This document shows positions 3,501 through 54,804 of a stretch of 64,000 nt of DNA, piece after piece (the stretch's first letter is position 1; each line of letters begins with the position of its first letter). A model generated the notes under the pieces. The model did no database searches, was not told the DNA's origin, and saw only the letters and a program-made list of their open reading frames with translations. Position numbers and translations under genes: made by a program. The DNA lies in NCBI GenBank assembly GCA_033819885.1, contig JAQYUZ010000019.1, forward strand, positions 1 through 64,000, in the 5' to 3' direction. The DNA is from Microbotryomycetes sp. JL201 (lineage: Eukaryota; Basidiomycota; Microbotryomycetes).

Positions 3501-5235
3501 GGGTCGTGTGCAATGCCAGACAGCATGGTGAATTTGCTGTTCTCGCTCAATCCAAAAGTTTCGGCCATCCACGGGAAGAAATGGGTCAGACTAAAGTGCC
3601 GACCTCGGACGCCCTTTGGAATGCCAGTTGATCCACTCGTGAAGGACAGCGTGCCGACAGAATCGGGACCTAGCGGAATATTGAGTGGTTGCGACTTGAG
3701 CGATAGGCAATCCGCAAGAACATCCGCCGCGGCGTCGGACGCGTTCGATCCGAGCAAGAGTCCAGAAGAGGTGAGCTTGAGTGCAGGTACCTCGACACGG
3801 ATCGACAGCTCTTTGTCGACGTATGCGCGCACGGGCGGCAAAAGCGAACCGGCGGCGGCAAGTATGACCAGTGCGCGTGGCTTAGCGACCTGAAGGTAGA
3901 TCGTTTGCCTTGCTGGCGGGTACGCAGGATCTACAACCATGTGGCATCAGCCAGGCATTAGCGCATAGTTTATGCCCTCGAAACATGAGACGACTTGCCG
4001 ATGACGGAGAATGTGGCGCCCGCTTTCAAGACACCCATGACTGCGACGACGAGGTCTACTCCGCGCGTCGAGTACACAGTGACGACCTCTTCGCGCTCGA
4101 CCCCCGATTTGACGAGGTAGTGAGCAAGCATGTTTGAAGCTTCATCAATCTGCTTGTACGTGAACGTCCGCAGACCGTTCTTGCCACCGACCTCTTTGGG
4201 CGAAAGAGACTCTACGATGCATGTGCGGTCAGGAAACCGTTGCGCATTTGCAGTGAAGATATCGGTGATTGCGCCGCGGTACCCGCACCACTCCAGGTCC
4301 TTGCGCGGGTCTGGCAGAATTTTGCGCTGCTTTGCCGTTAGAAGCGAAGTCGAACCGATCGGGTCAAGCGGATGCGCGGCAGCGTGATGGAGCACGTGCA
4401 TGAGCTGATCGATCGTAAACGCGATCCTTGCCGACGAGAACAGGAGCGAGTTGTACGAGAGCGTGAGCGAGATGCGAGGTGGCAGCATGGACGTGCGGGC
4501 GGCCGAAGTTGGCGTGGCCGTACCAGATGAGGGCTGCGTCGGTGCGCGCACTTCTGACGAGACATACAGCGTCAAGTCTGACGTGAGCGATGTCTGTTGG
4601 ACGAATGAGTGCTCTGCGCTGTCCAGCTCGTCAAAGAACCGGACGCGGAACAGTGGCGCCTTGGGGGGGCCGTCTGGGTTTTTCGAGTCTGTGTCGAGAC
4701 CGAGGGCGGTGAGCAGTGCCTGGTACGGCACCTTGTCGTCCTCTGCCTGCTGCTCTGTGAACTGGACGGTGCGCACGAGCGACCAGAACGAGTCTTGCGG
4801 GTCGAGCTTTATCCTGAGCAAGAGAGGATCGCGCGACGAGGCGGATGAGGTGGCGACGACCAAGTCCGTGTCTCCAGTGTACCTGTGCAGCAAGACGACA
4901 AAGGCGGCGAGCAAGAGGTGGAAGGGCGTTGGACTCGACTGTTGCTGGTGGTGTTGCATCTGCTGCTGCTTTCCTGAGGCCGGCGACAGTGTGCCCTCGA
5001 TACCCCGGGGCTCGTCGTCGTCGTCGTCGTCGTCGTCGTCATCTGTCAAGTCGTCTTCGTTCTCGTCAAACATGCCCAAGCGGACGAGTGCGGCTGCGGT
5101 GCGGTCGTCAATCACGCGACGTTCCTGCGCTTCGACCATTTGGTCGCCCGCCGGCCGCGGGTAGTCTGTAGGCAACTGCAGACTCGGCAGGTCTGCCAAT
5201 CGAGACAGCCACCGGTCCATCCTTGCAGACGCCAT
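575..5235 (-). CDS. LYS2: L-2-aminoadipate reductase (Lys2), 1470 aa, five exons
   Basis: Large subunit-type alpha-aminoadipate reductase. It activates 2-aminoadipate with ATP, holds it as a thioester on a phosphopantetheine arm and reduces it with NADPH to the semialdehyde, in the fungal lysine pathway. Exons on the minus strand are 3999-5235, 3487-3930, 2411-3427, 1551-2344 and 575-1495; together they stay in frame. Order of domains: condensation-like N-terminus, AMP-binding domain with the P-loop-like core [11 protein letters not shown], carrier domain with Ser in [14 protein letters not shown], then a reductase with the NADP motif [10 protein letters not shown] and the YGQTKW catalytic segment. 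Intron 1 (3931-3998) uses a GC donor, GCAAGT; intron 4 ends in AAG. A run of about ten Asp near residue 70 comes from a GTC repeat. An in-frame ATG upstream at 5292 is possible, but [17 protein letters not shown] fits the family start. A separate phosphopantetheinyl transferase (Lys5 type) would be needed; none is in the window. Confidence 0.97.
5012..5040 (+). repeat. (TCG)n microsatellite inside LYS2
   Basis: About ten TCG/GTC units in a row. On the coding (minus) strand they give the poly-aspartate stretch in the Lys2 N-terminal region. The tract is likely to vary in length between strains. Confidence 0.9.
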
Positions 5236-5372
5236 CCTTGTCGGTGTGTCCGAGCACTGTCGTTGCGAAAGACAGCGACACGGCCGAGTCAACCAGCGTC
5301 AAACGCGATTATCTCATCCATTTGTGGGTATAGCCTCTCCCAAAGACACGGCAGTATAATTCTGGAACCAGC

Positions 5373-6179
5373 TCATTCTTTTTCGTCGTCAACACCGCCA
5401 CAATCACATGCTGCGTCCCGCAAGGTCACGTGCCTGCCCGGTCCCTCATTGGGGTCCTCCGCCTTTCTATGTGTAATTACAGTACATGAGCTTGGAAGGG
5501 TGTCTACCCGGGCATCGTCGAATACGAATGACCTCTTCTTCGCCCGCTGGCGCCACTGATGACTGTCCGGCCGAGCTGGACCAGTTCCTGGATCCGACGT
5601 GAGCATGTCAGCCCGCCAGAGTCTCAAGTGGCACGGGGAATCAGAACGCACGGAAACGACCCCTCGGACCCCTCCGGTCTGGAACAGCGCCGGCAAGTCT
5701 ACTCCCGCTTGCTTCAGTCCAGCTCCAACGAGAAGCGCGCTCGTGATGAGAATAAAGACAACGACGAGAAAGTGGCTCTTTGGAGAGTCTCGTTCTGCAA
5801 TCATGATCGTGCTCGTCAGCAGAGATACGGACAGCGTGCGAGCGCCACTACGGCCCAACTGACGAAAGCATCGCGCCTCGACGTCACCATCCTCGCCCGT
5901 GCCCGTGTCTGGGTCGTCGTCTCCCCTGTGTGCGCCAACACACGCTTGCAGCTTTTGATCGAGGCAGAATTGTTTGGTGCAGCTCAGGCACGGGTGCAGC
6001 GGATCTTTCGGCAGATACAGCGGTATGATGGTCGAATTAGAGAAGCAGATGCACTTGCAGAACGTCATTGCACTCGATCCGGACGAGGACCATGGCGCCA
6101 AGGCGGCGACGAGCGTGGTCCAGTGCACACACGCGACCCACACGACGAGCCAGATACCGCACGAGCGCTTCCAGGCCAT
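5373..6179 (-). CDS. Conserved fungal Cys-rich membrane protein, function unknown
   Basis: The start at 6179 gives a hydrophobic N-terminal signal or anchor (CGIWLVVWVACVHWTTLVAA), then a lumenal cysteine-rich part with CKCICFSNSTIIPLY, CLSCTKQFCLDQ and a conserved CFQRDS motif, then a second membrane segment (FLVVVFILITSALLVGAG). I know this arrangement from many uncharacterised fungal proteins; no function is established to my knowledge. The CFQRDS motif is split by an intron, 5795-5863, with donor GTCAGT and acceptor TTGCAG; removing it restores the motif. The C-terminus is uncertain: the frame stays open to 5373, but a further intron ending near 5600 could give a shorter tail stopping near 5477. 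It lies just upstream of LYS2 on the same strand and is divergent from GPI13. Probable site: ER or another secretory membrane. Confidence 0.72.
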   Translation of the reverse strand: MAWKRSCGIWLVVWVACVHWTTLVAALAPWSSSGSSAMTFCKCICFSNSTIIPLYLPKDPLHPCLSCTKQFCLDQKLQACVGAHRGDDDPDTGTGEDGDVEARCFRQLGRSGARTLSVSLLTSTIMIAERDSPKSHFLVVVFILITSALLVGAGLKQAGVDLPALFQTGGVRGVVSVRSDSPCHLRLWRADMLTSDPGTGPARPDSHQWRQRAKKRSFVFDDARVDTLPSSCTVITHRKAEDPNEGPGRHVTLRDAACDCGGVDDEKE

Positions 6180-10217: not shown

Positions 10218-11871
10218 CTACAGTTTGTTTGAACCTTGAGCGCTGGGCGCATTTTGGATCGGCTGAGCACCAAAATAGTCATTCCTTGCCCAAGCGTGAA
10301 CCAAAGTATTGGCAATCGCCGTCGCAGGAGGCATCCTGAACAAGACGTCATTCTTCTTGGACTGCTCTCGTCCATCTTGACCATGTTCAGACTTGTTGTC
10401 TAAACGAGCGACTTCTTCTTTGCTAAACTGGGTTGGCTCGGAAGAGTTGATCACCTGCATGACTTGTTCTCGAGTGAACCATTGAGCGTCATCAAGCTCA
10501 TTGTCCAGGTCACAGCGAATCGTTTGGCCGGGCTTGGCGACGCCAATGGCACCAATCATGAGAGAAGATGGGTACGGCCATGGTTGAGACGAGTGATAAA
10601 AGACTGAACAGACATCATCATCAGCATAACGTGTTTGGCCTGTCTCCTTTCAAAAGCAACACACCTTCATCAACGACGATGCCCGCTTCTTCGTAAACCT
10701 CGCGCCTGACCGACTCTTCGATCGTCTCGCCAGATTCAATGAAACCAGCCAAGCAAGAGTAAAACTTTGGCGGCCAGCTCTTTTGGCGACCGAGCAGGAT
10801 CTGATTACGGTCTGGCGTCGTGATAGCCATAATGCAAACCGGGTCTGTGCGAGGATAATTAAAGTTGTGCACGCCCTTTTTCGAGGTACAAGCCGGTCGA
10901 CTTGCTTCCTTGTCCATATCGGACGCTTCAAACTCAACTTGGTGGTCTTGTTGTGCTCCCGGGACGCACGTTCGTTTCCAGCCTGCCCACACGCTGCGGA
11001 GAGCCCCTCCGCAAGCTGGACAGAACAAGTTGCGTCTGTTCCAATCGATCAAAGCTCGACCTTCTCCACCGATGGCAGCGTCTTCAGCTGGGATGGATTG
11101 CATGCCAGCGCGCATGTCTCCAAACTCTGCGTCCGTGTGGCGCTCGAGCACGAGCTTCTTCAGGTCGGTCAAGTTTGACACATCGAGTGCCCAGTATGGG
11201 ATACCGTATGGTGAATGAGACTCGAGGGTTGAATCGTCTGTCGGTTTCGACACTGGCAGCGATTGCTGTTCCTCTGGCGCACTCGATTCGTCTACGCCGA
11301 GAAACACGAGGGCGGGCTGTCGGATGTACGATCAGCACGCTCACTCATATGATCCGGGAAAAACTCTTGACTCGCTTGATGGATAAAATGTTGCCTGATC
11401 TCTGTAGGCGACAGTTCCGTCACGAGCCTGGTCGTTACCTCGTCCGACCTCTTGTACTGAGGAACGACTCCCAGTTTCGAGTCATCCTTGCCGTCGACGC
11501 CATCAAACACGTCCTTTGCTGTTGAACCGTCTGCTGAAATGTACTGCTTGACGTCTTGCCAGTCGACACTGACCAACCGCCTCACCGTTCCTCCTGATGA
11601 GGACGACGAGGAACCGTCTGCAGAGTTTGGCGACTTGTTGACGAGCGGAGACAAGCTGTCGTACAGCAGGAACTTTGCCTTGTGTGACTCGAGCGCACTC
11701 GTGAGGAACGCGGCGGATGATCGCAAGTATGATAACCGGTTTAAGCGGTTGCCGGCACTGCACAGGCAGTCGGGACAGACACACGCAAGGTCAGTCCTAT
11801 TCGTGTCAGCTCGAGTACGCATGCCTGCGCGTCACTGCGAGCTCAGAGGAACAATCGTGCGATGACCTCAT
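10218..11871 (-). CDS. NPY1: NADH pyrophosphatase, Nudix family (Npy1/NUDT12 type), 474 aa
   Basis: Hydrolyses NAD(P)H and NAD-capped substrates to NMNH and AMP; family members are peroxisomal. Seen: the N-terminal family block GNRLNRLSYLR, zinc-ribbon cysteines (CPACGGALRSVWAGW, then a further Cys), the YPRTDPVCIMAI block and a complete Nudix box GFIESGETIEESVRREVYEE followed by AG. The C-terminus is SNKL; the final NKL resembles a weak PTS1 peroxisome signal. Proposed exons: 11867-11871 (ATGAG only), 11376-11757, 10665-11316 and 10218-10603. The 5-nt first exon is an inference: with a 109-nt intron it restores MSAGNRLNR. Intron 2 (11317-11375) needs a GC donor, GCGAGT, to keep frame. The last intron (10604-10664) is well supported by EAGIVVDE running into VFYHSSQPWPYP. 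Confidence 0.9.
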
Positions 11872-12101: not shown

Positions 12102-13803
12102 TCATGAATCGCTAGACTTGATTCTCCCCATGTCGCGCATCATTCGCTCAAACCCAAACGGCATCTTGTCAACTTGGTCGTCCTCGTCTTGTCGAACCCG
12201 GTCGACCAACTTGAGTAATAAAGCCCTTGGAGGCAACATTGGCAGTCCGAAAACGTTGCTGCCGTCATTCTGCCACTCGCCCAGCCCGATCGTCTCGAAC
12301 GACCTCAGTTTGACGGCGTCACCCGCAGCCGACGATGTGTTTGACCTCTCACTCGACCGATCATCCATGCCACTGCTCGCGTCGTCCGAGATAGTAATCC
12401 TGTCCTTGACCCGAGCACTGGACAAAACGTCTGTACGTAATTGACCAGACTCGTCGAAATCGTCGAGGTCGAGATGCAAGCGCGCTTCGAATCGAGTTTC
12501 GACGACATCTTCGGACCATCTCCTTGTCAAGTACTCTTGCTCATCTGTCGAAAGCACATGCCACATGGGAGACGAAGTAGGGTTGTATTGGGTATCAGAC
12601 TCGTCCGTTTGTGAGCGGGTGGCCAGATTAAACGCGTGAGGTGCTCCCGCGGGAGCGAACTTGACTGCGTTGACAATCGAGCCAGTCTTTGGCGGCTCGA
12701 TCACCTCTACATGACCTTTTTCGCCTGCTTCCCGCTTGTCGCCTTGTTCGTCAAAACCTAAAGTCCGATGTTTTCCTGGCAACGTTCGAGTCTTTGATAA
12801 ATCGGACGAAACGAGCGAAGGCGGTCTCGTCAGACTCCTCGACAGCACCGGTCCGAGGCTGACAGATCTCGACCTCGCGTTCTGCCGCCTATCACCACGC
12901 AATCCGGCGACGAGTTCGGGCGATATGCATCTGGCACCGTTTGCAGAGCCTTGGCCCGTCACAGTTGTTTGCTCATCTTGCCCGTTGTCATCCGGTTCCA
13001 CGGCAGATTCGACCCAGCCTGAGGTCAAGAAGACTGAGATCAACCAAGATTGATGCATGTTTGTAATGGTCAATGGAGGAGGACACGGTGGCGCTCGGCA
13101 AACAAGATTGCCAAGCGTAGTACGCGAGTCCGCTTTTGGCGAGACGCTCGGTGTGGGATACGACGGGGATGTTGATGATCTTCTAGGCCTCTTCTTGGTC
13201 GGCTGCGATGAATGTGTGGACTGCAAAACACGGCAAGCACGGTCAAAATAGGGCTTTCGTCGAATGAAACAACCGCCCGCTCACTTCTGCGTCAGAACAT
13301 TGGTTTTCGAGATCAAATTCAGCCGCGACCCGTCCATCGCCATTGGATGCGCTGTTTGAAGACTGGTCCGTATGGCGTCGCGCTTCGTACAAAATGCGAC
13401 CTGGTGTTTGAGGAAAGCCCATCTGGGTTTCTTGCGAGCTGCCTCTGTCAACAATGTCCATATCCACGTATTGCTCCTGTGCGCCATCTCCTTCTATTGC
13501 AGTCAAGTCGACCGTGTCACACTACATCGCACGTGACCCGAAGGGGATTAGCGGTTTCACGCTGTACTACTACACTCCTTTACTCGAAGGCTTGCTCACC
13601 TGAGTTGGTCTGATAGTCCTGTGCATATCATTTTGAGACGTATGTGATGTTGGTGAAGGCGCTCGCATGGCCAGCGCAATTGTAGATTGTTCGGTCAAGT
13701 TTGTCGCACATGCCGTGCCATGACGAGTCGGGCTGACCCCAAGCTCGTGTCTGAGACTTGTATTGACTGTCTGGCCGCTCTGTCGGGCTCGAATCCGCTG
13801 CAT
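12102..13803 (-). CDS. Unrecognised, largely disordered protein, about 519 aa
   Basis: I do not recognise this protein. Three exons fit in frame: 13600-13803, 13285-13521 and 12102-13220, with good splice motifs (GTGAGC donors; TAG and TTTTGCAG acceptors). The start is uncertain: 13803 (MQRIRARQ) or 13668 (MRAPSPTS). The middle is rich in Ser, Thr and Pro, with a basic cluster KKRPRRSS that may be a nuclear localisation signal and nearby Ser/Thr-Pro sites. The C-terminal part looks more ordered, with VFGLPMLPPRALLLKLVDRV and MPFGFERMMRDMG as the best conserved-looking pieces. A possible in-frame intron lies inside exon 3 around 13020-13110. The features would suit a nuclear regulator under phosphorylation control, but that is a guess. 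Confidence 0.55.
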
Positions 13804-14882: not shown

Positions 14883-15947
14883 ATGGCGTCATCGATCCAG
14901 GCGACAAAACATGCATTGCGCAAGACTATCAAACATCGATTGAAGCAACTGTCGCCAGCAGAGGTCGCCCAGGACTGTCAGTCTGTCTCCCGCTCCGGCA
15001 CAATACTCTCGTCTTTAGGTCATTCATGCTCTTGAATCCCGGGATCCTGTTCGGTTTGATCCAGCTTCAAAGGTAGTTGCACACGTCATCAACTCTTCAT
15101 GGTATCAACGAGCCAAAACGATCTCATGCTACCTGTCTACGCCTTTTGGCGAAGTCGACACTGACCCAATCATCCTCGACGCTCTCAACAATGGTCAGCG
15201 ACATGTTTTCCAGCAGGCGAAAAAAGCACTGACTGTTTCGGACACGCCGACAGGAAAAGCGTTGTTTGTGCCGTTTTGCCCGATAGAAGATCCAACAGTC
15301 ATGCGAATGTTGAGATTGAGGTCGATTCAACATTTCCAAGGTCTGAAACTCAATAGGTGGAAGATTCGTGAACTCGACCCATTAGAGGTAAGTCCGTGTG
15401 CATGACAGATCACACAAGGCCGTCAGAGGCTGAGGTCTCGCCACACAACGCTTGAATAGATTGACACGCTCGATGACGGTGCGATTCGCTTTCAAATGAA
15501 ACTCGCCTCTGTCTTTTTGAACTGATTCAACATTCCATAGCCGAGACTGAAGCAGTTGGCGGTTTGGACTTGATCCTCGTCCCAGGCATGGCATTTGACC
15601 GGTCGAGAAAGCGTCTAGGACATGGTCGGGGCTACTACGACAGGCGAGTTTCAGTTGTCTCCTAGTACAAAAAAGCTTCGCGTGCTCACGTACTGAACAA
15701 CGGTCAGGTACATCAATCGAGCACACGAGACCTATGAGCAACGGTTTGGGAAACCTCCACCTCTGTCGGGCAAGTCTCATTACTTTTCCAGCTTGATTGT
15801 GATTCAAACGCGCTGATTTAAATGTGCTTGGTGACAGTGGCATTGGCACTGAACGCTCAAATGGTCGAATCAGACGAACACATTCCTTGGGACACATTTG
15901 ACCGGAAACCAGACAAGCTCGTCTTGCCCAGTGGGGTCATTGAATAG
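14883..15947 (+). CDS. FAU1: 5-formyltetrahydrofolate cyclo-ligase, 216 aa, seven exons
   Basis: Converts 5-formyl-THF to 5,10-methenyl-THF with ATP, returning folinate to the folate pool. Exons: 14883-14976, 15065-15193, 15254-15387, 15460-15478, 15541-15643, 15708-15769 and 15838-15947; the sum is in frame to TAG. Seen: N-terminal [15 protein letters not shown], the central [12 protein letters not shown] and GKALFVPF blocks, and the family signature [20 protein letters not shown] followed by RGYYDR. Exon 4 is only 19 nt and was chosen because it alone joins LDPLE to [10 protein letters not shown] in frame. Introns 5 (15644-15707) and 6 (15770-15837) have GC donors, GCGAGT and GCAAGT. It is divergent from PCC1 and converges with the next gene (121 bp between stops). 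Confidence 0.93.
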
Positions 15948-17700: not shown

Positions 17701-18651
17701 ATGCCCGGCAACAGGTGCGCAGAGCGTGTAACCACGAGCGTTTCCGTGATCTGACACGTCGTGCATGGTGCAGGGTCAAGACGCTCAAGGCGCTGCAGAG
17801 CCGCAAGGGCGGTGCGGCCTCGTCAAAGTTGCATCCAAACTCGCGCCGCGCCAAGCAGCTTCAGCGCGTCGAGCTCAGAGCGCACAAGCTGCAGGTTCAA
17901 GGCAGAGTGCACCGCAGCGGAGAAGTCAAGCGGGGTCAGTCACGCGCGCGCGCTCGCCATCAGAAGCATCGGCCGAGGCATGGGCCTGAGCGCTCACAAT
18001 TTGGAATTGTATGCAGTCGACCGATTGCTATACTTTGTACATGCGCTCGACGAAGACCGGGATCAGATCTCATTGGACGAGCTGCACCAGATCGTCAGCG
18101 ATTACATTAGCCGCGACGACGCAGAACGGGACGAGCTCGAACATGAGCGACAACAACGGTCAAACTGGCGCAAGACGGAAGGAAAATCCAAACGAGAGAC
18201 TGAGATTGACAAGCAGAAGGAGCAAGAGACGCTCGAGTACAAGACGGGATTTGGTCAGTCGGCTCGGCACAGTCTGCCTGTGGCTCGGTCGCCACTGCTG
18301 ACCCGAGTTTGCGTGTCACTGGACGCTCAGTCGTGCCAGACTTGACAAACGCAGAAAACGTGTTCATTTGCAGACAATGGGTTAAGCCTATTGGATCTGA
18401 AAAGAACCCTCGAGGAAGCAAAGGTGGAGACCCGTCATTCATTGGCAGGCGAGTTCTGAATCAAGTTCGGCTGTGCCGTCTCCGTTGACAGTGTCTGTTG
18501 TCCTAGGCTGCGGCTAATCAGTATCAACTCGGAGGACAAGAGCAAAGTCGCTGTCGTGCAAGAGGGCGTTAGACCAGACAAAGACGAGGAGAATCCGCCA
18601 CAGGACGAAGACGAGTCGGAAGAGCAAGAGGTCGAGATGCGAGATGCTTGA
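17701..18651 (+). CDS. TMA16: Translation machinery-associated protein 16, 224 aa, five exons
   Basis: Factor of the TMA16 family, which binds pre-60S ribosomal particles in the nucleus. Exons: 17701-17714 (14 nt), 17774-17934, 18017-18253, 18331-18448 and 18507-18651; the sum is in frame. Seen: the N-terminal HPNSRRAKQLQRVELRAHKL, the central helical block VDRLLYFVHALDEDRDQISL with SDYISRDDAERDELE, then VPDLTNAENV and RLRLISINSEDK. The tail is acidic. The last intron (18449-18506) has a GC donor, GCGAGT. Intron 2 was set by joining KR to VDRLL in frame through donor GTCAGT and acceptor ATGCAG. Divergent from the reductase with 245 bp between start codons. Confidence 0.87.
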
Positions 18652-25252: not shown

Positions 25253-25934
25253 GTTGAGTGATGACGTGTGGCGCTGAACGACGAGGGATAGGCAGGCGGA
25301 GAGAGCGATGATTCAGGAGACCGGCCCTGCTTGATACCAAACAAGTTGTCTGAAAATGTTGTGCGGAGGCTGCAGAGCAAAGGCTCGGTGCAGGAGAGCG
25401 GGCTAAGAGTTGCGGACGCTGGGAAGTGGCGTTCGCGGGACAAGGTGCGACGCAGAAGAGTGAGAGGAGAGATGTGCACTCGATCAACGAGAATGAACAC
25501 GGCTCTGTAGGGAGGTGCGGCGGCGGTTGAAAGAGATAAAGGTGAAGAGAAAAAGGCCGTGCGCAGCGAGAACCAACCCGTTTTGGCGAGCAAACTGGCG
25601 CGGGCAGCAGATATCAGAACCGCAGCAATTCGGCGTCGCACATCGCTGGAACGCCCTTCGAGCTCACCTGTGCCATGCGTCATTGCAGGACCCAGCCGTT
25701 CGGTTGCAGAGCGTAGACAAGTCGTTCAACAAGAATTGTCTCACTTTGATGGAATCTGTGAGTCAGTCCTGGAGAGGTCGGGCGATGTAAGTTGCAGAAG
25801 CATAGACAGTGCTTTTGTGGATGTTTCCAAGTAAACAATCGACTGTGCTATTTTTGCCCACTCGGGCACCCGAGCGAGCGGCACGGTGTGGAGGTTGGTG
25901 AAAGCTTGCGCCGACCATTCGTCTCGCGACCAGC
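25253..25934. promoter_or_regulatory. Divergent intergenic region, 682 bp
   Basis: Lies between the start codons of the LPMO-like gene and the Apd1-like gene, so it holds both promoters. A plus-strand frame at 25559-25834 (about 91 codons) has protein-like composition but no ATG and no family I recognise. No other feature seen. Confidence 0.5.
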
Positions 25935-33947: not shown

Positions 33948-34426
33948 TTGAGAAATAGGTAGACAGGAATGTAGAGCGTCATCTCCCAACGCAAACGCCA
34001 CGGTGGTGGCAACAAGCAAGATTGACGTACATCCTGCAATCGTTGGCTGCAGATTGATCTGTCAAGAGCTGAGAAGTCGCTCCTCATCTGCAACGTATTT
34101 CACTTGCTAAGAATTAAAGTGATTCTCCGAGCGCTTGTTACGGTCGTGGAACCACTTTACGCCCTGGCATAGAGCATGGAAGCTGAAGTTGGATCCGTCG
34201 GCTCGTCCGGAGACCACCGTCAGACCCTCCTGCAGGCAGCAGGCGCTACCCCAACTACTGCACCACCGCACAGAATAGCGGAGGCTCGCCACTGCGGCTC
34301 GGCAGCACCGCCGTCGCGACGAGACTTTGGCAGAGAAATTGCGGCTTCAGCAATGCTTGACATTCAACGTTTCTATGCTGCTTATACATCACGAGCTGGT
34401 CAAAGGAATGGGAAGCCTAAGAAATC
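33948..34426. other. Stretch between the small gene and the Crypton-like gene
   Basis: 479 bp. One end of the Crypton-like element should lie here, because it sits between a host gene and the 3' end of the recombinase gene. I see no terminal inverted repeat. A plus-strand frame from 34176 runs antisense into the recombinase gene and has no family features. Confidence 0.45.
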
Positions 34427-37400
34427 TCACGCTGTCGCCACTGTAACCGCCACTGCTGCCGGAGCTGTCTGTACTGCACCTGCTGTTTTGCGTCTCTTAC
34501 TTCTACCAGCTTCACAATTCCAAGCCCTGACTCTGTTGATAGCCTCCGTGCAAGTGTCAGATTGTAAAGCATACTTCTCTCTGAATGCCTTCGTCTGCTC
34601 CTCTGAATTGCGACTGGGATCATCGGCACATGACAACTCCCAAGCGGTGGCAATGGTTCTCCGAATACCATAACCCATCGCATTTTGAGCTTGCCACGTC
34701 GCCGGCCAGTCCTTCAACGCGATCCGTCCGTTGGCGAGACTGCCATTGAACCACTGGTCAATGTACTCGGTCCAGCTCTTAGCTGTTTGAGTTTGAGTCG
34801 TCGGGGCTTTGTCGTCCGGGATAGGAATCTCGGCCTCTGCACATCTCCTCCGAAATGTTGCATCGTCATGTTTACGGTTGGCGCGGCTCTTCTTGACTGG
34901 GGCGGTGTGCAACAGTGTTCGGCGACGTTCACGCTGGCGAGTCCTCAGTCGATCTCGACCATGCAGCGATGATTGAGGCGAGACTTGCTCCTTCTCTTGC
35001 ATCTTTTCTGCCATCTGCTGGGTTTTGACGACGATAGTCGAGCACAGTTTCTGGAGTGCTGCGATCGCCTCGCTCGTGCGACCCTGAAACTCATCTTGCT
35101 GCCGAGCCAGGTGCGCCTGGACTAGGAAGAGTTTCCCATGTGCGCCCGCTGATACAGGTGATTGCTCATCTGGTGCCTCCATCGCGTCACCGCGCTGCGT
35201 CGCCGACGTTGCAAAGTCTACCTCGTTTCGGTTCGAAGCTTCAAGCTGAGAGTAGGCCTGCACTTCGTCATAGATGATCTGACGGACCGTTTTATCATCT
35301 ACGAGGGCCGCTGGTGGTTCTTGATACAGAGCTCGGCCTTCGAACGCCTCCGGATCGAGGATGTCTCCCACGTTGGTTGACTGAGTTCGAATGTTGGCCA
35401 GCAAGTACTTCACGATTGTTTCCTGGTGTTCTTGCTCTGTCCAGCCACCCCACTGTTGACATGCATGCAGGCTCCACTTGCGCCGGGCATAAATGAAACG
35501 CCACTGAGCGCCACCGCGACGCAGATAGTGACCAGTGTACTGCAAATCCATGTAATCCACTCCGGCTTGTTCAAACGTTTGCTGCATGAGAATGTTGAGA
35601 GCAGTTTTGCTAAGTTCCTGTCCCGGTTGCAGGTCCCATTGCTCGTTTCGAAAAGCAGGAAAGAAGCGCAAGTTTCTGTTGTCCCTGCAGTCGGCAGGGA
35701 GTCGAGCGAGCAGTAGATTCTTGTACTCGGTGATGATCTCGAAGAAGGCTGGCCCTTCAGGCTGGTTCTCAGGGCATCGCATGCGGAAGGTTCTTGTGGC
35801 GTCCGTCTGATTTGTCTTGCGTAAGCCGAGATGAAGCAAGAAACTCTTGCGGCCATGACCGTCTGTCTGATCAAACTGGAAGTCTGTCATTCTCAGCTTG
35901 CAGAGCTCGTCCACTCTGCACAGTGAGATGACAGTGATCAGCCAAGTTTCGAACGATGCCGGGTTCTAAGTGGCGTCGAAACCTTGCTTACCTCAACCAG
36001 GCAAAGAATCCTAGCGCAAACAGTGCACGGCGGTAAGCGTTTTGAAACCTTCGGACCGCGCTCATCAGGGGCCCATTAGTTGGATGCGTGTCGATGATTT
36101 GTTGCAAATGCGAGACGGAAAGGGCTGTCAATCGCTTGGCGTCTCTGTTGCGTCCGCCCTCTTTCTTGACCATCGCGAAGAAATCTATGCACTCTTGAGA
36201 GCAAAGAGGATGTCCAGTCGCCGTCGTGGGCTCGAATGGTGTGGTCTGCGCATGCTAGTGCGTCAGTTGGTTCAGCAGGATGCCTGCGAGATTGCGAAGG
36301 CTCACCTTCAGACGTTGATGTTCTTTCGTGTAATGCCAGGAGACGGCCGACCGAAATACATCTACAGTTGTTGCGGCCCATTTTCCGACCCTGTACTGAT
36401 GGCTGGCGTAACGCAGGATGGCTGCTGGACTGTGCTCCGTGACTTTGTCGATGCCCGCTTTCAGATGAGGTTCGCCTTCAAGACGCGAGGTCCATTCAGT
36501 CCAACGCCTGAGGAGACTCTTGTATGAGTTGATTGTGTTCTCGGAATTCAAGCCCTGGGTGAATTTTTTGGTGTGGATCCATGCATCCTCTGGCGAAAGG
36601 ATAGACACTTCTGCTGCGTTCGGCTTCTTTCTTGATTTTGAAGACCTCTTTGGAGGTGGCTGAGACACAAGCATGACCGTCTGAGCTGGACCATTCGGGT
36701 CATCCGTCGTGGGTCGCTTCTGCATTCGAGGTGGGGCGGACTGTGGCGCAGGGAGAACGATGGCCACCGGCGTGGTCTGAGAGATAGAGGTAGTTTCCTC
36801 AACGATGTTCTGCTGCTGCTGCTTAGCCCTCGTCTTCTTGTAAGGGCCGCGTTTCTTGCCGGAGCCTTTGCCACTCGTCGGTTTGACAACGCCTGGAACA
36901 TCGTTGTTACTGACGTTCCCCTGATGCGCACTCAAGGTCGGGTGCGAGGACTGTGTCGGTGCAGGAGACAAAGTAGGCTGAGGTGCAGCTGCTGGCGACA
37001 AGTTGCCTGGCAACGGCGCGGAGTGCCCTGCCGTCATGTTGGGAGGCAAGTGACTGGCTGACACGGTAGGAGAGGTGCCGGCTTGATTCCACCTCGGATC
37101 AGGCGGTTGCCATTGCTGCCAGTTGTTATGAGCTGCAGGATGGGCCGATTGCGACCATTGCGATGGATCTGGGTGCGGAGGAGGGTGACCATCAGGTGTA
37201 TAAGGTGGATTTGCACCTTGCTGGATCAAGACTGGCTGAGGTGCGTAAACAACTCGCTGGAGCGGCAGTGGGAACGGGGAAGGACTCGGCGAGATGCCTG
37301 GAGCCGTCTTGGGCACGCTACCGTAACATGGTTGATGATGAGCATCGACAGGTGTCTGTTGCTGCTTGAAGTCGACAAGAAAACTCAAAGGAAGGGGACG

Positions 37401-37586
37401 GTCGTCTAGATTGGGATTGTCGAGACGAGAAAGGACCGACGCGTTCGAACACGTTGTTGTGATCGTTAATGTGATTACTATGATTTTTATTTTATGTGCG
37501 ATTACAGAGGGCATTACAAACAGCAGGAACATTCGCGCGAGACGAGCACAAAAACGAGAGGTGCGTGTCGTGTCAACGCTGAACAT
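34427..37586 (-). CDS. Crypton-type tyrosine recombinase with GCR1_C domain, about 1007 aa
   Basis: Site-specific tyrosine recombinase of a Crypton DNA transposon, which would cut and join DNA through a covalent phosphotyrosine. Exons on the minus strand: 36306-37586, 35992-36245 and 34427-35915; total 1008 codons, in frame with no internal stop. Order: Pro/Gln-rich N-terminus, a basic AT-hook-like stretch GKKRGPYKKTRAKQ, a core-binding domain (NTINSYKSLLRRWTEW), then the catalytic domain with Arg in LRVDELCKLR (split by intron 2), the H-x-x-R box in YTGHYLRRGGAQW, QWGGW in place of the second His, and Tyr in ETIVKYL. The C-terminal KSWTEYIDQWFNG and AMGYGIRRTI region matches the GCR1_C DNA-binding domain that Cryptons carry. 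The start is uncertain (37586 or 37529). A domesticated host gene is the main alternative. Confidence 0.84.
34427..37586 (-). mobile_element. Crypton-like DNA transposon (minimum extent)
   Basis: Only the coding span is given; true ends must lie between 33948 and 37771, the limits of the flanking host genes. Cryptons lack terminal inverted repeats and leave only very short direct repeats, and I could not fix the ends by eye. The single gene with introns, the recombinase core plus GCR1_C and the absence of any other transposon gene all fit. The open frame over about 1000 codons suggests a young or still functional copy, or a domesticated one. The stretch at 37440-37500, just inside the 5' end, is AT-rich compared with its surroundings. 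Confidence 0.75.
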
Positions 37587-37771: not shown

Positions 37772-40700
37772 TCAAGCCGCCGTGATATTGGGTGGCGCAG
37801 AGCCAGGCCCGAACGACGAACTCCTCGACCCAGGTTTGCTCACGCTCAACCTGTTGAGCACGGTTTCAGCTTTGGCGCGTGCAGTTCTTCGTTGCGTATG
37901 AGTCGACGTCGCGACCGTATTGCTTGTGCTCGCCAACGAAGGCGTTTTACTGTTTCGCGCCGAAGTCGTCGGTTGACCGAGAGATGATTGCATATCGGCC
38001 AAGGATGGAGCTCGGATAGACGTCGGTCGATCAGGAGAGCCAACTCGAAGAGAACTGAGGTTTGTCATTGATCGGTTTCGACCGCCACCATTGCTCAGCG
38101 ATCCAATATGGTGTTCTACGACGAAAACATCAGCGCGGCCGCTCATTGGTCCCTGTCGCGATTCAAGCTCACTCTTCTTTCTCTGAGCCACTTCTGGCGA
38201 CCATGGAGCAACCAGCTGCGTCGCCAGCCCCGCTCCTCCAGCTTGTTGTAATCGGCTCGAGCTCGTCAAGGCGTCCAAAACTGCCTGGACAGGCAATGAC
38301 GCTCTCGAGCTCGAGGCGCTGTGAGCAAAGTCCGCTGACGTCGTGCCTTTCTTTCTATGCAGGTTGGGCAATACGGAGGGATCCAATTTAGACAAAACCT
38401 GATGGAACTCAATTGTAAGTCGACAACCAGTCACAGCAAACTGCATCGAATCGTACCTGTGTTGCCAAGCGGCCCACCTCACTGATCCCCCAAGCTTCTC
38501 CGATTGCCTGGATACCTTCTGCCGCAATCTCCCTACACGCCTGGGCTCGCTCTCGCCCTTGGTTTTCCGAATTCTCCCATTGTTCGCCGTTAGTCTGCAG
38601 AGCCAGAAGAGCTGGCGTGCCTTCAGTCACTGCCTCAATCGACTGCCTCAATTGTAGAGCTCGAACGATGGCGACCATGGCGGCGTAATCCGACGCGTTG
38701 GCCAAAGACTGTCCGCCAGGACGAGACGAAGACATGGACCTCCTTCTCGAGCTTTTGGACGATCTTCGCGTATGAGTTACAGTCGAGCGAGACTCGTCCG
38801 CACCAAAATCATCCATGACGGCCGGGCCAAGGTTCTGGCTCGTCGCTAGCTCGTAAACGGCGACGTGCAACTCGCGAGCGAACCTCTCCAACTGGTGTGA
38901 CGGCTCCCATAGATCGTCTTTTGGGCTTGGTCTAGCAACTGCCAGCTCACGCTCGATGTAGAACAAGACGGCGCGCTGATACTCTTGTCGGACAGCAGCG
39001 TCAACGTCCGTCATCAAGAACAACGATTCTGCAAAAACTTCTGGCGCGACTTTGGCTCGCTGTCCAGCAGACTTGATCCGAACAAGCGGTCGTCCAAGCG
39101 CGTCCGTCGGACTGTCCTTCTTGCCTCGCAGCTCGCCGCCGTCGCTATTAGCGTTGCCATTTACGTCACCGTTGGCTGACGCGTCGCTTTCGCTTTGATT
39201 GACCGGCACGGCGACCTGAACTTTTCCGTCGCACTTGTCCGCTTGAACGAGAACGGCTTTGAGGGCGCCGACAAGCCGGCGCATTGCACGTTTGCGCTCG
39301 CTCCGACTCAAAGGCCGACCTGTCCGTCCTTCGCCCTCTTTGACCCGTTTGATGTCTTCAATCAGATCGGTAACGACGTCATTGAGCTGATCGACATAGT
39401 AGATGTGGCTCGTTGCGAGGGACGCAATCGTGTCTAGCAATGGGAGACCTAACGGGTCGTCTTCTCCGAAGGAAGCGCGCTCAATAGCCAATCCAGCCAA
39501 CTGGCTGAGGACGCTCCCGATTCCGAGTCCGACGAGCGTCGTCGGCCCTCTCAATATTTGAGAAAGTGTTTGCAAGAGCGTTTGGGCTTTCGCCGACGCT
39601 TCAGAGTCGTTCACTTCGACGACTTGCTCGACCCACCAACTGACCACTCCTGCGCGATACTGGACGGCTGACGCAGAAATGACCGACGTGCCGAGCCACT
39701 CTATGAATTGCGTCTGCTTCCATAGCGAACCATTCTTGTACCGGTCCAGCCACGAGCCGGTTGCGGTCAACTTTGAGTACAGCTGTGCGCTGTTTGACAG
39801 GCGTGTTGCTGTCCTCAGAGCCTTGACGGCTTCTGTTGCAAGATCCTTGGACGACGGCGCGGATTCGGGGGCGTTAACCGGAGGCGCCCTACGGTGCTCG
39901 AGCTGTGGCAAGTTGGAGGTGTGCGCCTCTGCGTCCGAGACGTCGTGACTGCACAGAGGGACGAAATGAGCACATCCGTCAGCACTTCCGGGACGTCTGT
40001 GCGAGACAAGCAGGCGCTTGATGAAGGAACCCTCGAACGTACGCCTGATTCAGTTCGTCCGTCGAGCTGTCGAGGCAATTGTACAGCAAGCCGGGTACAA
40101 TTTCCTCGATCTGCGAGTCGTAACCGTACGTTGAAGAGTAGAGCAGCTCTGATCTGACTGCGGCGTTGAGTGCCTCGAGTGCGACCATTCGAGAGCTATA
40201 GTGGGGCCGAGCAACGGAACGTGCGCAGACAGAGTGTTAGCACGTGCAGTGCTTGAGACGAAGGAGGCGTGGTAGTGAGCACTGACGCTGTGTCTTGTGG
40301 TCCGAGTTGAGCGAGTGAGGATACGAGTGCGAGGCAGCGTGTGTATTGCTTCGAGGTGGCTTCGTCGACGGATGGGCCGACCCCGCTTGCCATGGTCGCC
40401 ACGGCAGCAAACTGAAAGATGGCGGGGCGTGAGGAGAGATGTCAGTATCAGGACCTGTGCTAGTGTGAGCGTATGACAAGTGACGCGACTTGCCAGTTGA
40501 GCGGCGTTCGCCTCCAAATGGACGTCACGGTGCGCGCCATTGCGCCGGAGCAAGCCGATCTCGGCCGCACGCAGCGCTGCCTTGGCCGTCACGTTCCATT
40601 CTGTCCTGGCCTCGGTCACAAGCGCGGTCATAGCTTGTAGCGTGACGCTCAAACCGCCGCGCGCCTTTGCACCCGATGACGGCCGACCATCGCGCTCTGC

Positions 40701-46600: not shown

Positions 46601-49126
46601 AGGAAAGCGTGAGGTTTCGAACCGGCGAGCGGCACAATTTTGCAAGTTCGCATCTTGCCGTTGAATTTGACCGTTGAGACCTCCGACATGCAGTCAGTGT
46701 CCATAGCACCTGCAATTCGACGAATTAGCGTCGACACGGGCTGTCGGGACCAAACACTCACCGATGGGTTTGCCGAGACCAAAGCCATACAGCAAACCGC
46801 TCTCTTCCTTGGGATTGTTGGAATCTATCGCAGCAAGATCAGTTGGGCATTCCTCCACAGCACAAACCCGTTCAGCTCACTCATCGCTTCTCGAATCAAG
46901 CTGTTCAGGCCCAGGCGACAAACGAAGTGCATGTCGAGCTCTTGACTGCCCGTGAATAACTCTGCACAGACGTAGAGGTGTGGGTTGACTTGGCGAGCTG
47001 CGTCGAGAAGCAGTTCGCCCACGACGATGGGAGTCGAGTGAGCATTGTCCAAGCGAAAGCCATCAAACATTTTCGCCAAGGTCACGACATAGTCTGTCAT
47101 ATGCTGCCACAGCCAAGGGTTTGACTTTGGTCCATCGCCGTAGTTGAGCTTGACGCAGTCGCCCCAAACGATCAAGTCTCGCCTCATGTATGTGCGCGAT
47201 TCGGGGCCGGCGAAGTTGATTAGCGGGTCCGCGTCCCAGATCCAGCCATTGTTGGCGAGCGCCAAACTGCGCGGATCGTGGCGCGAAGTCTTTTCGTTCT
47301 TGGGCAAGCGAGTGAACAGCGGCTCGGCGAAGGGGAGTCTGAAACATTTACGGTCAGTGGCTCATCAGAAGCGCAGGATTCAGCAACTCGCCTTTCGGTG
47401 ATCGGGCCATACTTGGGTCCGTGTTCGTCCAGCCGAGTGAATTTCGCTCTGTTCCGGGTATTTTCAATGATCGCCTTCAGATCTTGATCATAGGCCTCGT
47501 AGAGAGGGACGTTGATGACGTCGAGGATGTTGGCCAACGCCTTGCGCGCTTCCTCGGCTGTGTCTTGTCCTGGTTTGAGACCAGTGAGCTCGGAGATGAA
47601 CGTTGCAGCGGCGTCAACGTCAACTTTGGCATGATAGCGCGCGCCTAAGTGCTTGTAGTCATCGGACAAGCATTTCTGACCAAACGCTTCGCCGAGTGCC
47701 TTCGGGCTCAAGCCGGAAAGACTGGCAGACGAGCCATTTGCTTGGGCCGACACTTTGGCGCTGGGCCATTTGCTTGCGAATGCGTCTGCCTGTCCCTTGA
47801 CGTCAATGGCATAAAATTCGTAGAGCTTGAGCGACGGCAAGACCTCCTTCGTGACGACCTCCATGATCTTGTCAAGGTCAGCCATTGACTTGAGCTCGGT
47901 CGGCAACCCGCGTGAAGCGAGAGAGTTTGAGAACTCGAGAAGAGCAGAGTCGAGCTCGACAGCACCCTCAAGGTGAGGTGAGTTGATTACGTTGTACCCT
48001 GTGAGTGTTTGCGCCTCAATGTCAACACATGAATTGAAATGATTGCCGCCTGTTTGGGACTCGCCTGCCTCTGGATGATCTTGAAGCCATTCAGAATTGT
48101 TGGCTGTGTGGTTCAAAACCACATCCATCATGCCGAGCATGCCCCACTCTTCTTTGATGCGCTTGAGCCATTTTGCCATCTCCTTGTTCTTTTCTTGGCG
48201 CGAAATCTTTGACGAGAACAAGACATCGTCGAACTCCAGCTGGTCAAAGATGGAGTATGGGGACCCCGATTCTCCTCTCTGCTGCAGAGGAGTGTAATGC
48301 AGCATGTTGTAGCCGCGGTCGCGCATTTGGTCGAGGTGAGGCACCCATTCGTCGAGGGTGCCCATCCATTTTGCAATGACGGACTGGATAACGAGACCAT
48401 CGAGAGGCAAATTGGCCATTTCCTTCGTAACAGTGCCTCCCTTGCCGACAGGGAGAGGTTTCATGTCTTGCCCCAGTATGCGAGTCCTTCTCGGTACAGT
48501 CAAGGCGGGATCGACGATGAAATAACCCGACTGGCACCGGACGCGCTGTGACTTGGGTCCGTCATGCTCGATATAGTATTCAAAAGCGCCAGCGGTCGTG
48601 ATCTGTGTTTGCGGCGGAGAACAATCTCATCGGTCAGGAATCTTCCGTTGCGCGTTCGATGCGCGTCCGAAACACGTCTCGCTCACAGTCAAATCGATTT
48701 GAAATGGTTTGGTGAAATCTTGTGGCAGCCTACACGTGATGTTTGTGAGCAATGTTTGAATCGGATTCCGCTCGAGTTCCGTGAATCGTCAGTGACGCAC
48801 TTTGTTTCGATAAACCGGGCGCGCTCGTACTGCGAACCGTCCAGAGGAAAGTTTGTATACAAGCTACCATTTCTCGAGGCTGTCGTGCCTGCGTCGAGCG
48901 TGATTCTGAGGATGTAGGGCGTCACGGGCGGCGGCAGGCGGACGAGCTGCGCAGTTTCGGTGGCACAAGGCGAACAAACTCAGCATTCTCTCGCGGATGT
49001 GCCCCAGCGATAGGCTTGTCGGCTACTGACCGTCTTGTCACGGTTCGGTGAGCCATTGTCCTGCAGCTGAAGGCTGTATACGATGAGCTCGTCCGTGGCC
49101 TCGTCAACTCGACCGAGCGCGGCCAT
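43626..49126 (-). CDS. GDB1: Glycogen debranching enzyme (4-alpha-glucanotransferase/amylo-1,6-glucosidase)
   Basis: Bifunctional enzyme that moves maltotriosyl units and then cleaves the alpha-1,6 branch point. Exon 1 is 49031-49126 ([17 protein letters not shown]), ending in GTCAGT; exon 2 starts near 48944 ([20 protein letters not shown]). Many more exons follow: the main ones lie at about 47395-48540, 46830-47340, 45800-46710, 45200-45640, 44430-45190, 44120-44360 and 43626-44020. Seen: the GH13 transferase domain with [15 protein letters not shown], the nucleophile region [12 protein letters not shown] and acid/base region [14 protein letters not shown], then [12 protein letters not shown]; the glucosidase half ends with [21 protein letters not shown]. 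Length of about 1500-1560 residues matches eukaryotic debranching enzymes. Divergent from GatA (204 bp) and convergent with the E1 alpha gene (97 bp). Confidence 0.97.
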
Positions 49127-49330: not shown

Positions 49331-51350
49331 ATGGCACTGCCGCGGGAACTTGTACAACTCGTGACAGATGCTGCCGCGCTCAACACGACCGTGCGCGCAC
49401 TGAATCATGTGGCATCCATCGCAGGCGAGTCGCGCCGGGCGACACGCGAGGCAAGCAAAACAACAGCAACTGACGCGCTTACGTCGGCCATTCTACCAGA
49501 TCTCACTCGGGCTTACAATGCTGCTGGTGGCTCAAGGAACGAACTGCAGCAGCCGGTGCGGCACTGGCCCGTCGCCGTCAAGGACGTCTTCTGTACCACG
49601 ACAGAACCCACGACAGCCAGTTCACGCATGCTCAAGGGTCAGACCAGCCTGGCAAAACGCTCTTTGTCTTGCCCGCTGAAGCCGATTTGGTCCCGTGCGA
49701 CAGACTATATCAGCCCGATCGAAGCTACAGTCGTCAGCAGATTGCGCAACGCTGGCGCACTCGTCGTCGGCAAAACAAACATGGACGAGTTTGGCATGGG
49801 GTAAGCCCACTGCGAATCTGGTCCGCCGTAAATTTGACTGACCAGGTTCAATCATCCTTGGGGCTTAGCTCGGAAAACGTCAATTCAATCTTTGGATCAG
49901 TGGTCAATCCAGCGCGCCCGAATGGTGATACACCAAGAAGCGCAGGTGGAAGCTCGGGTGGAAGTGCGGCTGCAGTCGCCGCGGGCATGTGCCGGGTGTA
50001 AGCCGTCGCCACCTTGAAGGAAGCACTCCATGTGCCGGGGACTGAAAAGTAAACATACTCGAACAGAGCACTTGGATCGGATACTGGCGGATCTACACGC
50101 CTTCCCGCTGCATACTGCGGCGTCGCTGGATTCAAGCCGTCCTATGGCTTGCTGTCGCGATTCGGCATGATCGCATACGCCAGTAGTCTCGATTGCGTTG
50201 GCATCTTGGCAAAAAAGGTGGAAGACATCAATGTCACTCATGGTGTGCTCTCATCAAGTGCAACGCGATTCATGTCGTCGCTAACTGCTATATATCTGAT
50301 AGACACTCTCTCGGCTCACGACCCGCGAGACCCAACGAGCGTGCCACAGTCGGTTCGCGACCGTGTAGCAGATCGCGACAGACACCTCGCACACAAGGAC
50401 GTGCACGACCTAGCCGGGTTAAAGGTTGGCGTGCCAAAGGCAAGTTGCCCTGGTCGTCTAACTTGAGATCTTCAAACGAAGACTGATCGTGGTCGCTGCA
50501 ATCAGGAATACTTTCCCAGCGAACTTTCGCCTACTGTGCTACCTCCTTTGAGAAAAGCTCTTGGCGCGCTCAAGAAACGAGGCGCGCAGATTGTGTCGGT
50601 GTCGCTTCCGTCAACGCCACTCGCTCTAGGCGCATATTATGTGCTGGCATCGGCTGAAGCAAGTAGCAATTTGGCGAGGTACGACGGCATCCGCTATGGT
50701 GAGTCACAGACGATGCGAGCGTCGAATCGAGGCCTCATGCCTTGAATTCCTACAGGATATCGCGACATCGATAGAGAGGATTCAAGCGCACGCGCTCAGC
50801 TCTATGCCAAGACAAGAAGCAAAGGTTTCGGCAAAGAAGTTCAGAATCGAATACTGCTCGGCACATTCGCCTTGTCGGCAGAGTAAGACTTTACAAGCTT
50901 ATGCCGAAGCTCACCGCGCTTTGAGCTGAGACGACTTTTTTTTTCAGGGCCTTCGACAATTACTTTCTGCAAGCCCAGAAAGTCAGACACCAAATTCGTC
51001 AAGAATTTGACGAGGTTTTCCGTCAACGGTCACCGCTGTCGGACTCTGTCAATTCAGTGCACGGTGGAGCTGGTGGTGTTGATGTCTTGTTGTACCCTTC
51101 CGCTATTTCTACAGCACCGTTTCTCAAGCAGGAAGCAACTCGGAGCTCTTCGCCGTCGCCAAGCACGAGCTCATACGTTCAAGATTTGCTCAACGTTCCT
51201 GCTTCTTTGGCGGGTTTGCCAGCACTTCACGTTCCAGTCGGACAAAGTGAGCAAGATGGCTGGCCTGTGGGAGTTCAATTGTGTGCGCAGTGGGGTGATG
51301 ATCAACTCGTCTTGCGAGTCGGTCGAGCTCTGCAAGCCGCCATCGAGTGA
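49331..51350 (+). CDS. HER2: Glutamyl-tRNA(Gln) amidotransferase subunit A, mitochondrial, 544 aa
   Basis: Amidase subunit that releases ammonia from glutamine to convert Glu-tRNA(Gln) into Gln-tRNA(Gln) in mitochondria. Exons: 49331-49800, 49869-49997, 50067-50242, 50303-50439, 50506-50698, 50756-50882 and 50948-51350; the sum is 545 codons in frame. Seen: the amidase signature with the Ser-cisSer-Lys triad: Lys in [10 protein letters not shown], Ser in [16 protein letters not shown] and Ser in [15 protein letters not shown]; also [39 protein letters not shown] and the C-terminal [11 protein letters not shown]. Intron 4 (50440-50505) has a GC donor, GCAAGT. The N-terminus is weak as a mitochondrial presequence. 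A general amidase is less likely, given the C-terminal block. Confidence 0.95.
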
Positions 51351-53310: not shown

Positions 53311-53865
53311 GACGCGTCGACGCAGGCCGTGGCCACTCGTTTCCGTGTCGAGATGGCGGGGAGCTCGTCTCTTCACACGCAAGGTGCCGAGCCCACGAGT
53401 TACGGGACTGCGTTAGAGTATTTCTGAGCGGTGTGTGAAGCAAGCAGCGGGCAGTCCGCGTTGGCCGAGCGCGAACTTTGGGCAGTCGGCGGCGAGGGCG
53501 AGGCCCGTCGCAGTCGTCGCGATCGCCAGTCGCGTGGCATGCAAACGATCGCTTCCAGAAACTGCATTCTTGCTCGGGGCAGATGTAAATTTATAAACAA
53601 GCACGTTCTGTCACCGACAGAGCCCGCTCGCTCACGTGACATCAATCTCTTTCCTCCTCGTCCACACTCCGCAGCAAGTCACGTGAGCGCTATCCGAGTG
53701 CAGCGATCGGGCTCGTGCCAGCGTCTGCTTTCTGCTCAAACAAGCTGCCAGCACAAGCGGACGACAGAAGACTTGCGGGCTGTATTCTTGTGCATGCGTT
53801 TTGGCCGCTTGCAGCTCATCCACTGCAGAAATCGCCTTTGGCCTCAGAAACAACTCGGACGCGCC
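53311..53865. promoter_or_regulatory. Divergent intergenic region, 555 bp
   Basis: Holds the promoters of the DUF6534-like gene and the oligoribonuclease gene. Two copies of the palindromic hexamer CACGTG occur (53634-53639, 53680-53685), 46 bp apart, in the part nearer the oligoribonuclease start. CACGTG is the E-box bound by bHLH factors in fungi. No gene seen. Confidence 0.5.
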
Positions 53866-54804
53866 ATGGCGACACGTCAGGGGAACGAAAAGATCTTATG
53901 GGTCGGCAAGTACCATTGTGTAGACCTGGCTCGTACGGTCATGTAGGTGTTCCCGTCTGACTAGTCTGTATTGGCGCAGATTGTGAAATGACTGGCCTCA
54001 ACGCGTACACGGCACCGCCAGACCACGACACGAGCAAGCCCTTCGTCCCAGACAGAATCATTGAAGTATGTTCACAGGGATGTCGAGCGCGATGCGGTCC
54101 CGGCTGCTGAACTCCGTGACAGATTGCAGCAATCGTCACCGACAAGGACTTGAACTTGCTCGACGATGGAGTGCAGTACATCATAAAGACTGACAAGGAC
54201 GTGCTCGACAACATGAACGAATGGTAAATCATGCACGTCTCGTCAACAGCCTCGGCCGCACCGCCTCGACCTGAACAACCACCTCGTCCACACACAGGTG
54301 CATCAATCAACACGGCAAGACGGGTCTGACGGCATCCTGCTTGTCTTCGTCAACAACAATGTCCCAAGTCGATGACCTCGTTTCTGACTATGTCAAATCT
54401 CATTTCGACGGTGGCGACACAAAAGCCCTTTTGGCCGGCAACTCTGTTCACGCAGACAAATTGTTTATTCGCAAAGATTTGCCAAAATTGCACAGCTTGT
54501 TACATTACAGAATTTTGGACGTGTCGACGATCAAGGAACTCGTCGCGAGATGGTATCCGCAAGTCAGCAGACCAGCGAAAGCAGACTCCGATCACAGGTA
54601 CGCGGAACCACCATGCGTTCTCGCCTTTTCGCGAACTGACAATGCGTCTTGATTCCAACAGAGCGATGTCAGACATCAAGGACTCGATCGCAGGCAAGCG
54701 GGCGCTGCTGTACCACTCGATCGGACGGCGCTCCTTTCTGCTGACAGACATGTTCTGGGATCATTGCAGAACTAAAACATTATCGCAAACATGTGTTTGT
54801 ATGA
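53866..54804 (+). CDS. REX2: Oligoribonuclease (DEDDh 3'-5' exonuclease, Rex2 type), 197 aa
   Basis: Degrades RNA dinucleotides and very short oligonucleotides, usually in mitochondria in fungi. Exons: 53866-53905, 53980-54065, 54123-54223, 54298-54597, 54662-54693 and 54770-54804; the sum is 198 codons in frame. Seen: Exo I motif as WVDCEMTG over the first junction, RIIEIAAIVTD, WCINQHGKTGLT, the Exo II region GNSVHADKLFIRKDLPKL with HYRILDVSTIKEL, and Exo III DHRAMSDIKDSIAELKHYR. Introns 1 (53906-53979, GCAAGT) and 5 (54694-54769, GCAAGC) have GC donors; both are required to join conserved motifs. No clear mitochondrial presequence is visible, so the compartment is open. Converges with the eIF4G gene with 238 bp between stops. 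Confidence 0.95.

Follow-up and report, generated by a model that had tools for sequence, protein, structure and literature searches.

GC-AG introns, in which the donor site begins with GC in place of GT, are estimated to make up approximately 7-16% of the introns in Microbotryomycetes sp. JL201, a basidiomycete, with 10-15% as our best guess. Our analysis concerns a stretch of 64,000 nucleotides (contig C11:1-64000, G+C content 54.6%), referred to below as the window, within the genome (17.15 Mb, 92 contigs), and it supports the conclusion that the raised share is not confined to this window. By calculation we observed the introns themselves, their raised share and its dependence on donor context, and found the 5' end of U1 small nuclear RNA (snRNA), the zinc finger of U1C and the U6 box to be normal. 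In the explanation that we favor, with a probability of about 0.7, these are introns of the major spliceosome, and ordinary U1 tolerates C at donor position +2 when the rest of the site pairs well. An earlier note on the window had listed eleven GC-AG introns and put their share at about 15%, compared to about one percent in most fungi; the latter figure agrees with the fungal mean of 1.009% over 130 genomes given in PMC7072748. All eleven listed stretches run from GC to AG on the coding strand, and their donors (GCAAGT/C, GCGAGT or GCATGT) are as the note had described them.

Introns were called by our own gene finder, which combines a 3-periodic coding model, profiles of donor, branch and acceptor sites, and a length model on both strands. 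The sample for training and counting included 28 loci with 312,329 bases: the window, 24 further 10-kb stretches, and three small loci (one duplicate locus and one all-N stretch among the 25 fetched stretches were left out). Only GT introns were used to train the donor profiles, and an AG acceptor is required by the model, so the AG provides no independent test. With a single non-GT donor class allowed in each run, the model score rose by 474.6 for GC and by 85.2-164.4 for the 14 decoy dinucleotides; by these decoy scores, an origin of the GC calls in chance or in the patching of reading frames was rejected. When 16 donor classes competed and were re-estimated, the expected counts were 591.3 for GT, 114.7 for GC, and 1.3-24.3 for the decoys. 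After subtraction of the mean decoy, GC makes up 14.8% of the introns (12.5-16.6 by bootstrap over loci), with 14.1% (11.9-16.0) without the window and 18.3% in the window alone. Thus the 15% of the earlier note agrees with the joint estimate but is near the top of the 7-16% range. Counting only donors of the types RAGT and RAGC at positions +3 to +6, net of decoys, leaves approximately 60 GC introns beside all 591 GT introns, or 9.2%. With decoys tested singly, 102 GC introns were obtained vs 19-54 per decoy, corresponding to a share of about 8%; we think that this figure is lower because the decoy then substitutes for the missing GC introns.

The GC introns resemble the GT introns of the same sample in other respects. 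The median length is 62 for the 86 GC calls and 63 for the 567 GT calls, and the best branch motif is most often CTGAC in both classes (37 of 86 and 237 of 567, respectively). Lengths divisible by three are not enriched among the GC introns (31/86). U12-type introns, whose donors are of the RTATCC type, were rejected as the source: all 16 donors of the GC introns recognized in the window begin with GC, and none starts with ATATCC or GTATCC.

In addition, we searched the whole genome for a pattern consisting of a donor, 25-55 bases, CTGAC, 4-24 bases and CAG, using the reversed pattern as a control. The pattern with GCRAGT was found 1216 times (control 572) and that with GTRAGT 1662 times (control 316). 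The counts for GCAAGT and GTAAGT were 711 (control 237) and 381 (control 161), respectively. These counts are only rough because the controls differ from the targets in word frequency (in the sample, GTAAGT 53 vs 169 for its reverse, and GCAAGT 284 vs 233), and they are not taken as showing that GCAAGT exceeds GTAAGT in number. When each RAGT excess is divided by the proportion of RAGT among the modelled donors (0.465 for GC and 0.205 for GT), the GC share comes to about 16-17%. At posterior above 0.3, the gene model backs 16 of 30 GCRAGT and 23 of 26 GTRAGT pattern donors in the sample. A separate class of GA or GG donors was rejected: the GRRAGT pattern shows no excess (481 vs control 604), the modelled counts are at the level of decoys, and none of 10 GRRAGT pattern donors was backed. 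Together, the 28 loci and the genome-wide patterns extend the count beyond the window, as the earlier note had proposed, and place the share well above one percent.

The bases that follow the donor dinucleotide strongly affect the choice between GT and GC. For seven contexts at positions +3 to +6, the expected numbers of GT and GC donors were 20.7 and 19.5 for AAGT, 26.9 and 12.1 for AAGC, 94.1 and 22.2 for GAGT, 76.4 and 9.5 for GAGC, 46.5 and 3.8 for GCGT, 84.6 and 2.5 for CAGT, and 30.3 and 1.6 for ACGT. GC therefore accounts for about half of the modelled donors where AAGT follows, for a fifth where GAGT follows and for almost none where CAGT follows, and the latter context is an internal negative control for the GC calls. 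Among donors with AG at +4 and +5, a purine at +3 is found in 59 GC and 241 GT introns, and C at +3 in 2 and 99, respectively (odds ratio 12.1, p 1.8e-6). GC donors thus strongly favor a purine at +3 and A at +4. Within the 86 GC calls the frequencies are 0.70 for G at -1, 0.88 for A or G at +3, 0.73 for A at +4 and 0.98 for G at +5, in line with the earlier remark that these sites are close to the U1 consensus apart from the second base. Outside of positions +1 and +2, GC donors match U1 at 4.36 of 7 positions vs 3.74 for GT donors (p 8e-6). The mean computed U1 pairing is -5.9 for GT donors and -4.4 for GC donors, and it would be -8.3 for the GC donors with T at +2. GTAAGT was observed 21 times vs 48.8 expected under independent positions, beside 18 GCAAGT, as if some of these donors had changed from T to C. 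As a side observation, GTCAGT is common among GT donors (86 of 567 calls vs 51.9 expected); with GTAAGT rare, the best match to U1 seems to be avoided.

Mutation pressure toward G+C could also have made GC donors common without any special tolerance at +2, as proposed for Emiliania huxleyi, which has 65% G+C and 56-65% GC donors (PMC4028052). In our sample, C/(C+T) in the intron interiors is 0.536, which is near the proportion of GC donors before AAGT. However, the G+C content of the window is only about one standard deviation above the fungal mean (47.1 +/- 7.39 in PMC7072748, as we read these figures from their context), yet the share of GC introns is several-fold the 1.0% mean, and GC is nearly absent before CAGT, therefore pairing matters. 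Base composition alone looks weak as a cause, and we regard this explanation as unlikely.

In the window we recognize 16 GC introns, picked by hand, beside 91 GT introns called by the model; the resulting share of 16/107 (15%) mixes two standards, as the GC set was pruned and the GT calls were not pruned likewise. The first window model that allowed GC had 22 GC introns. Seven of these, at 13600, 15917, 17479, 19486, 23201, 32330 and 35992, were dropped as weak or located at gene ends, and one (53906-53979) was added from homology. At posterior above 0.5 the joint model makes 19 GC calls in the window, including four outside the 16 (13600-13666, 23201-23246, 39949-40015 and 60317-60393). Five of the 16 are additional to the eleven listed earlier: two in the glycogen debranching enzyme, one in GatA and two in GLC3. 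The GC donor has a posterior of 0.74-1.00 in ten of the eleven listed introns, the exception being 53906-53979 in REX2.

We compared Pfam scores between paired GC and GT-only gene models, where the GT-only form was the best one made by the program, except for LYS2 and the debranching enzyme, for which it was written by hand. The pairs for FAU1, GatA, REX2 and GLC3 each test two GC introns jointly. The GC form was preferred in nine of ten pairs, with a tie for TMA16. In LYS2, the intron 3931-3998 (minus strand, junction SVI|DPAYP, posterior 0.98) raises the AMP-binding score to 90.7 bits vs 58.6 for the GT-only form. In NPY1, the intron 11317-11375 (minus strand, HQ|PALVFLGVDE, 0.92) gives 37.5 vs 31.1 bits for the NUDIX-like domain. 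The two FAU1 introns, 15644-15707 (GYYD|RYIN, 0.98) and 15770-15837 (PLS|VALA, 0.97), both on the plus strand, give 129 vs 66.2 bits for 5-FTHF_cyc-lig, and their junctions agree with solved cyclo-ligases in PDB alignments. The potassium transporter HAK has two introns on the plus strand, 28097-28153 (GEG|GPFALY, 0.99; K_trans 293.5 vs 261.0 bits) and, in the C-terminal part, 29860-29925 (SFE|GIYS, 0.82; K_trans_C 45.3 vs 38.2 bits).

The glycogen debranching enzyme contains the introns 47339-47391 (minus strand, GPITE|RLPFAEP, posterior 1.0) and 47999-48064 (minus strand, HPEA|GYN, 0.99), with ungapped PDB alignments across both junctions; the hDGE_amylase score is 270.0 bits vs 254.6 when 47999-48064 is retained. 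In GatA, the intron 50440-50505 (plus strand, 1.0) joins VGVPK|EYF, which aligns without gaps to IGLPKEFF of a PDB protein, residues that the GT-only model deletes. The other GatA intron, 49425-49499 near the start (plus strand, 0.86), is suggested by the gene model and by an Amidase match that starts closer to the profile start when the intron is removed; the joint Amidase score is 306.3 vs 287.8 bits. In REX2, the intron 53906-53979 (plus strand) has a posterior of only 0.12, the first exon being short, and is decided by homology, as its junction WV|DCEMTGL restores the first exonuclease motif and aligns with WVDLEMTGL of solved oligoribonucleases. The second REX2 intron, 54694-54769 (plus strand, DSIA|ELKHYRKHVF, 0.74), is backed by a PDB alignment, and the two together give 94.8 vs 72.2 bits for RNase_T. 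The GLC3 introns 62718-62777 (0.84) and 63027-63096 (0.89), both on the minus strand, are backed by ungapped PDB alignments across both junctions. Their CBM_48 score is 60.9 vs 50.1 bits, and the alpha-amylase score (40.8 vs 40.5) gives no separation for 62718-62777.

Protein homology thus supports 13 of the 16 window introns and nine of the eleven listed, for which the earlier claim that GC donors are needed for the frame and the conserved motifs is upheld; the remaining two listed introns, in TMA16 and EFR3, are predicted mainly by the splice model. For TMA16 (plus strand) the gene model retains the donor at 18449 (0.99) but prefers the acceptor at 18521 over the one proposed earlier at 18506 (posterior 0.08), giving the putative intron 18449-18521; all other boundaries, and all donors, are unchanged. 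The Pfam domain of TMA16 ends short of this intron (114.1 vs 114.2 bits), whose prediction comes from the gene model. The putative EFR3 intron 40412-40493 (minus strand, 0.99) has a GT-only alternative with a donor 9 nt downstream and in frame; it is suggested mainly by the gene model, with a slight Pfam preference (24.6 vs 22.3 bits, both below the cut-off of 27).

If the model merely patched reading frames with GC sites, the true share could be 1-3%. Synthetic sequences with a true share of 0, 1.1, 8.0 and 17.0% gave estimates of 4.0, 1.1, 9.2 and 17.3%, respectively, and the share may therefore be off by about four points; at 0% the GC count was 30.6 vs 29.0 for the largest decoy, and in the real data the decoy counts go up to 24.3. 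However, the real GC count is 114.7, GC falls close to the decoy level before CAGT under the same model, the model separates GCRAGT from GRRAGT pattern donors, and homology backs most of the window junctions. We consider over-calling on this scale very improbable.

Among the components that read the donor site, U1 shows no change. The single U1 match in the genome (C7:112439-112616; Rfam, E up to 0.001) spans the Rfam model and has the canonical 5' end AUACUUACCU. A DNA search of the genome with E up to 1 found no second copy, although a strongly diverged U1 could escape it. Over its first 64 residues, U1C aligns with U1C proteins of solved structure (71.8 bits for the best) and has a normal zinc finger, the ACAGAGA box of U6 is intact, and LUC7-like exons were found in one place in the genome. 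A changed U1 as the basis of altered splice-site recognition, raised by the earlier note, is thus not what we found. The U6 snRNA gene (C63:52479-52661) seems to contain an mRNA-type intron of approximately 67 nt (GTAAGA...TTAG) directly after ACAGAGAA; mRNA-type introns in U6 are known from some fungi.

A variant U1 with G facing position +2 could read GC donors directly, similarly to the U1 isoform suggested for GA-AG introns of Eurytemora and Oikopleura (PMC7072748). Six ATACTTRCCTTG sites are present in the genome, and two of them carry the variant G (ATACTTGCCTTG), with the pattern requiring the bases that follow in the canonical U1 gene. By eye, neither of these two variant sites continues like U1, and one of them reads as a GC donor on the other strand. 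Moreover, a matched U1 would have no need of a purine at +3. With the single U1 match in addition, this explanation appears very improbable. The site that reads as a donor lies in a 500-base piece (C49:53251-53750), where a cysteine-rich open frame on the minus strand ends at a GCAAGTATTT donor, followed by what looks by eye like a GC-AG intron; the gene model called no gene there. Editing of C to U in the pre-mRNA, which would turn GC donors to GU before splicing, is extremely improbable, as editing would make stronger pairing at the other positions unnecessary and the GC donors have it.

In the favored explanation, canonical U1 snRNA would recognize donors with C at +2 through one C-A mismatch, offset by better pairing at G at -1, A or G at +3, A at +4 and G at +5. 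A T-to-C change at strong donors would then be nearly free, and GC could accumulate to the observed share. This presumes binding of the GC sites by U1 itself, a rise in their share through drift and not selection, and some later step that is more permissive than in most other fungi. We suggest, tentatively and at less than even odds, that the check on position +2 has been relaxed in this lineage by a change in a later splicing factor, making C and T nearly interchangeable at strong donors and GC a standard second class read by ordinary U1.

Several points weigh against this explanation. The GC share does not rise smoothly with the number of U1-matching positions: donors with one or two matches show 17-19%, those with three or four 9-10%, those with five 17% and those with six 50%, and the low end, where the calls are least reliable, does not fit. 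The share at posterior above 0.5, 0.8, 0.9 and 0.95 falls from 13.2 to 10.4, 9.3 and 7.3%, and the simulation with 0% GC returned 4.0%, as given above. The U1 match itself is weak (31.1 bits vs a cut-off of 69.5), all intron calls are based on the gene model and protein homology only, and the account gives no reason why C at +2 is tolerated more here than in other fungi.

Two other predicted genes of the window lack Pfam matches at E 0.001 over part of their length. The gene at 34347-37532, with a 371-residue piece of this kind, presumably resembles a tyrosine-recombinase-type integrase of a mobile element. The gene at 23150-25918 encodes a secreted-looking protein with HIQMFYPPP and a long Ser/Thr-rich tail, in which the first 284 residues are without match.

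Without GC donors, several conserved enzymes of the window gain or lose segments, and GT-only models score worse both in the decoy comparison and in the Pfam pairs, as expected from the earlier warning that gene finders assuming GT would fail here. GT-only gene sets for this species, and perhaps for its relatives, would therefore be wrong in many places. With canonical U1 and GC donors in perhaps a tenth of its introns, a compact fungus such as this would be a natural setting for studying what C at +2 costs and which factor checks this position.

In animals, fungi and plants, about 98-99% of the introns are of the GT-AG type (PMC7072748), and a GC-AG share of 1.85% is given for Ganoderma lingzhi (PMC11590231). 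No fungus with a comparable share was found in the entries and passages covered by our searches of open-licence PMC papers. The introns described here are similar to other fungal GC-AG introns in having a GC donor, an AG acceptor and stronger U1 pairing at other positions, but differ in their share and in making up about half of the donors before AAGT. In the haptophyte E. huxleyi, GC donors also occur genome-wide with AG acceptors and GT-only gene models fail; in contrast to that majority in a 65% G+C genome, they are a minority here, in a fungus of about 55% G+C (PMC4028052). The GA-AG introns of Eurytemora affinis and Oikopleura dioica are likewise a single non-GT donor class far above its level in other species, but a variant U1 was proposed there (PMC7072748), whereas the sole U1 found here is canonical.

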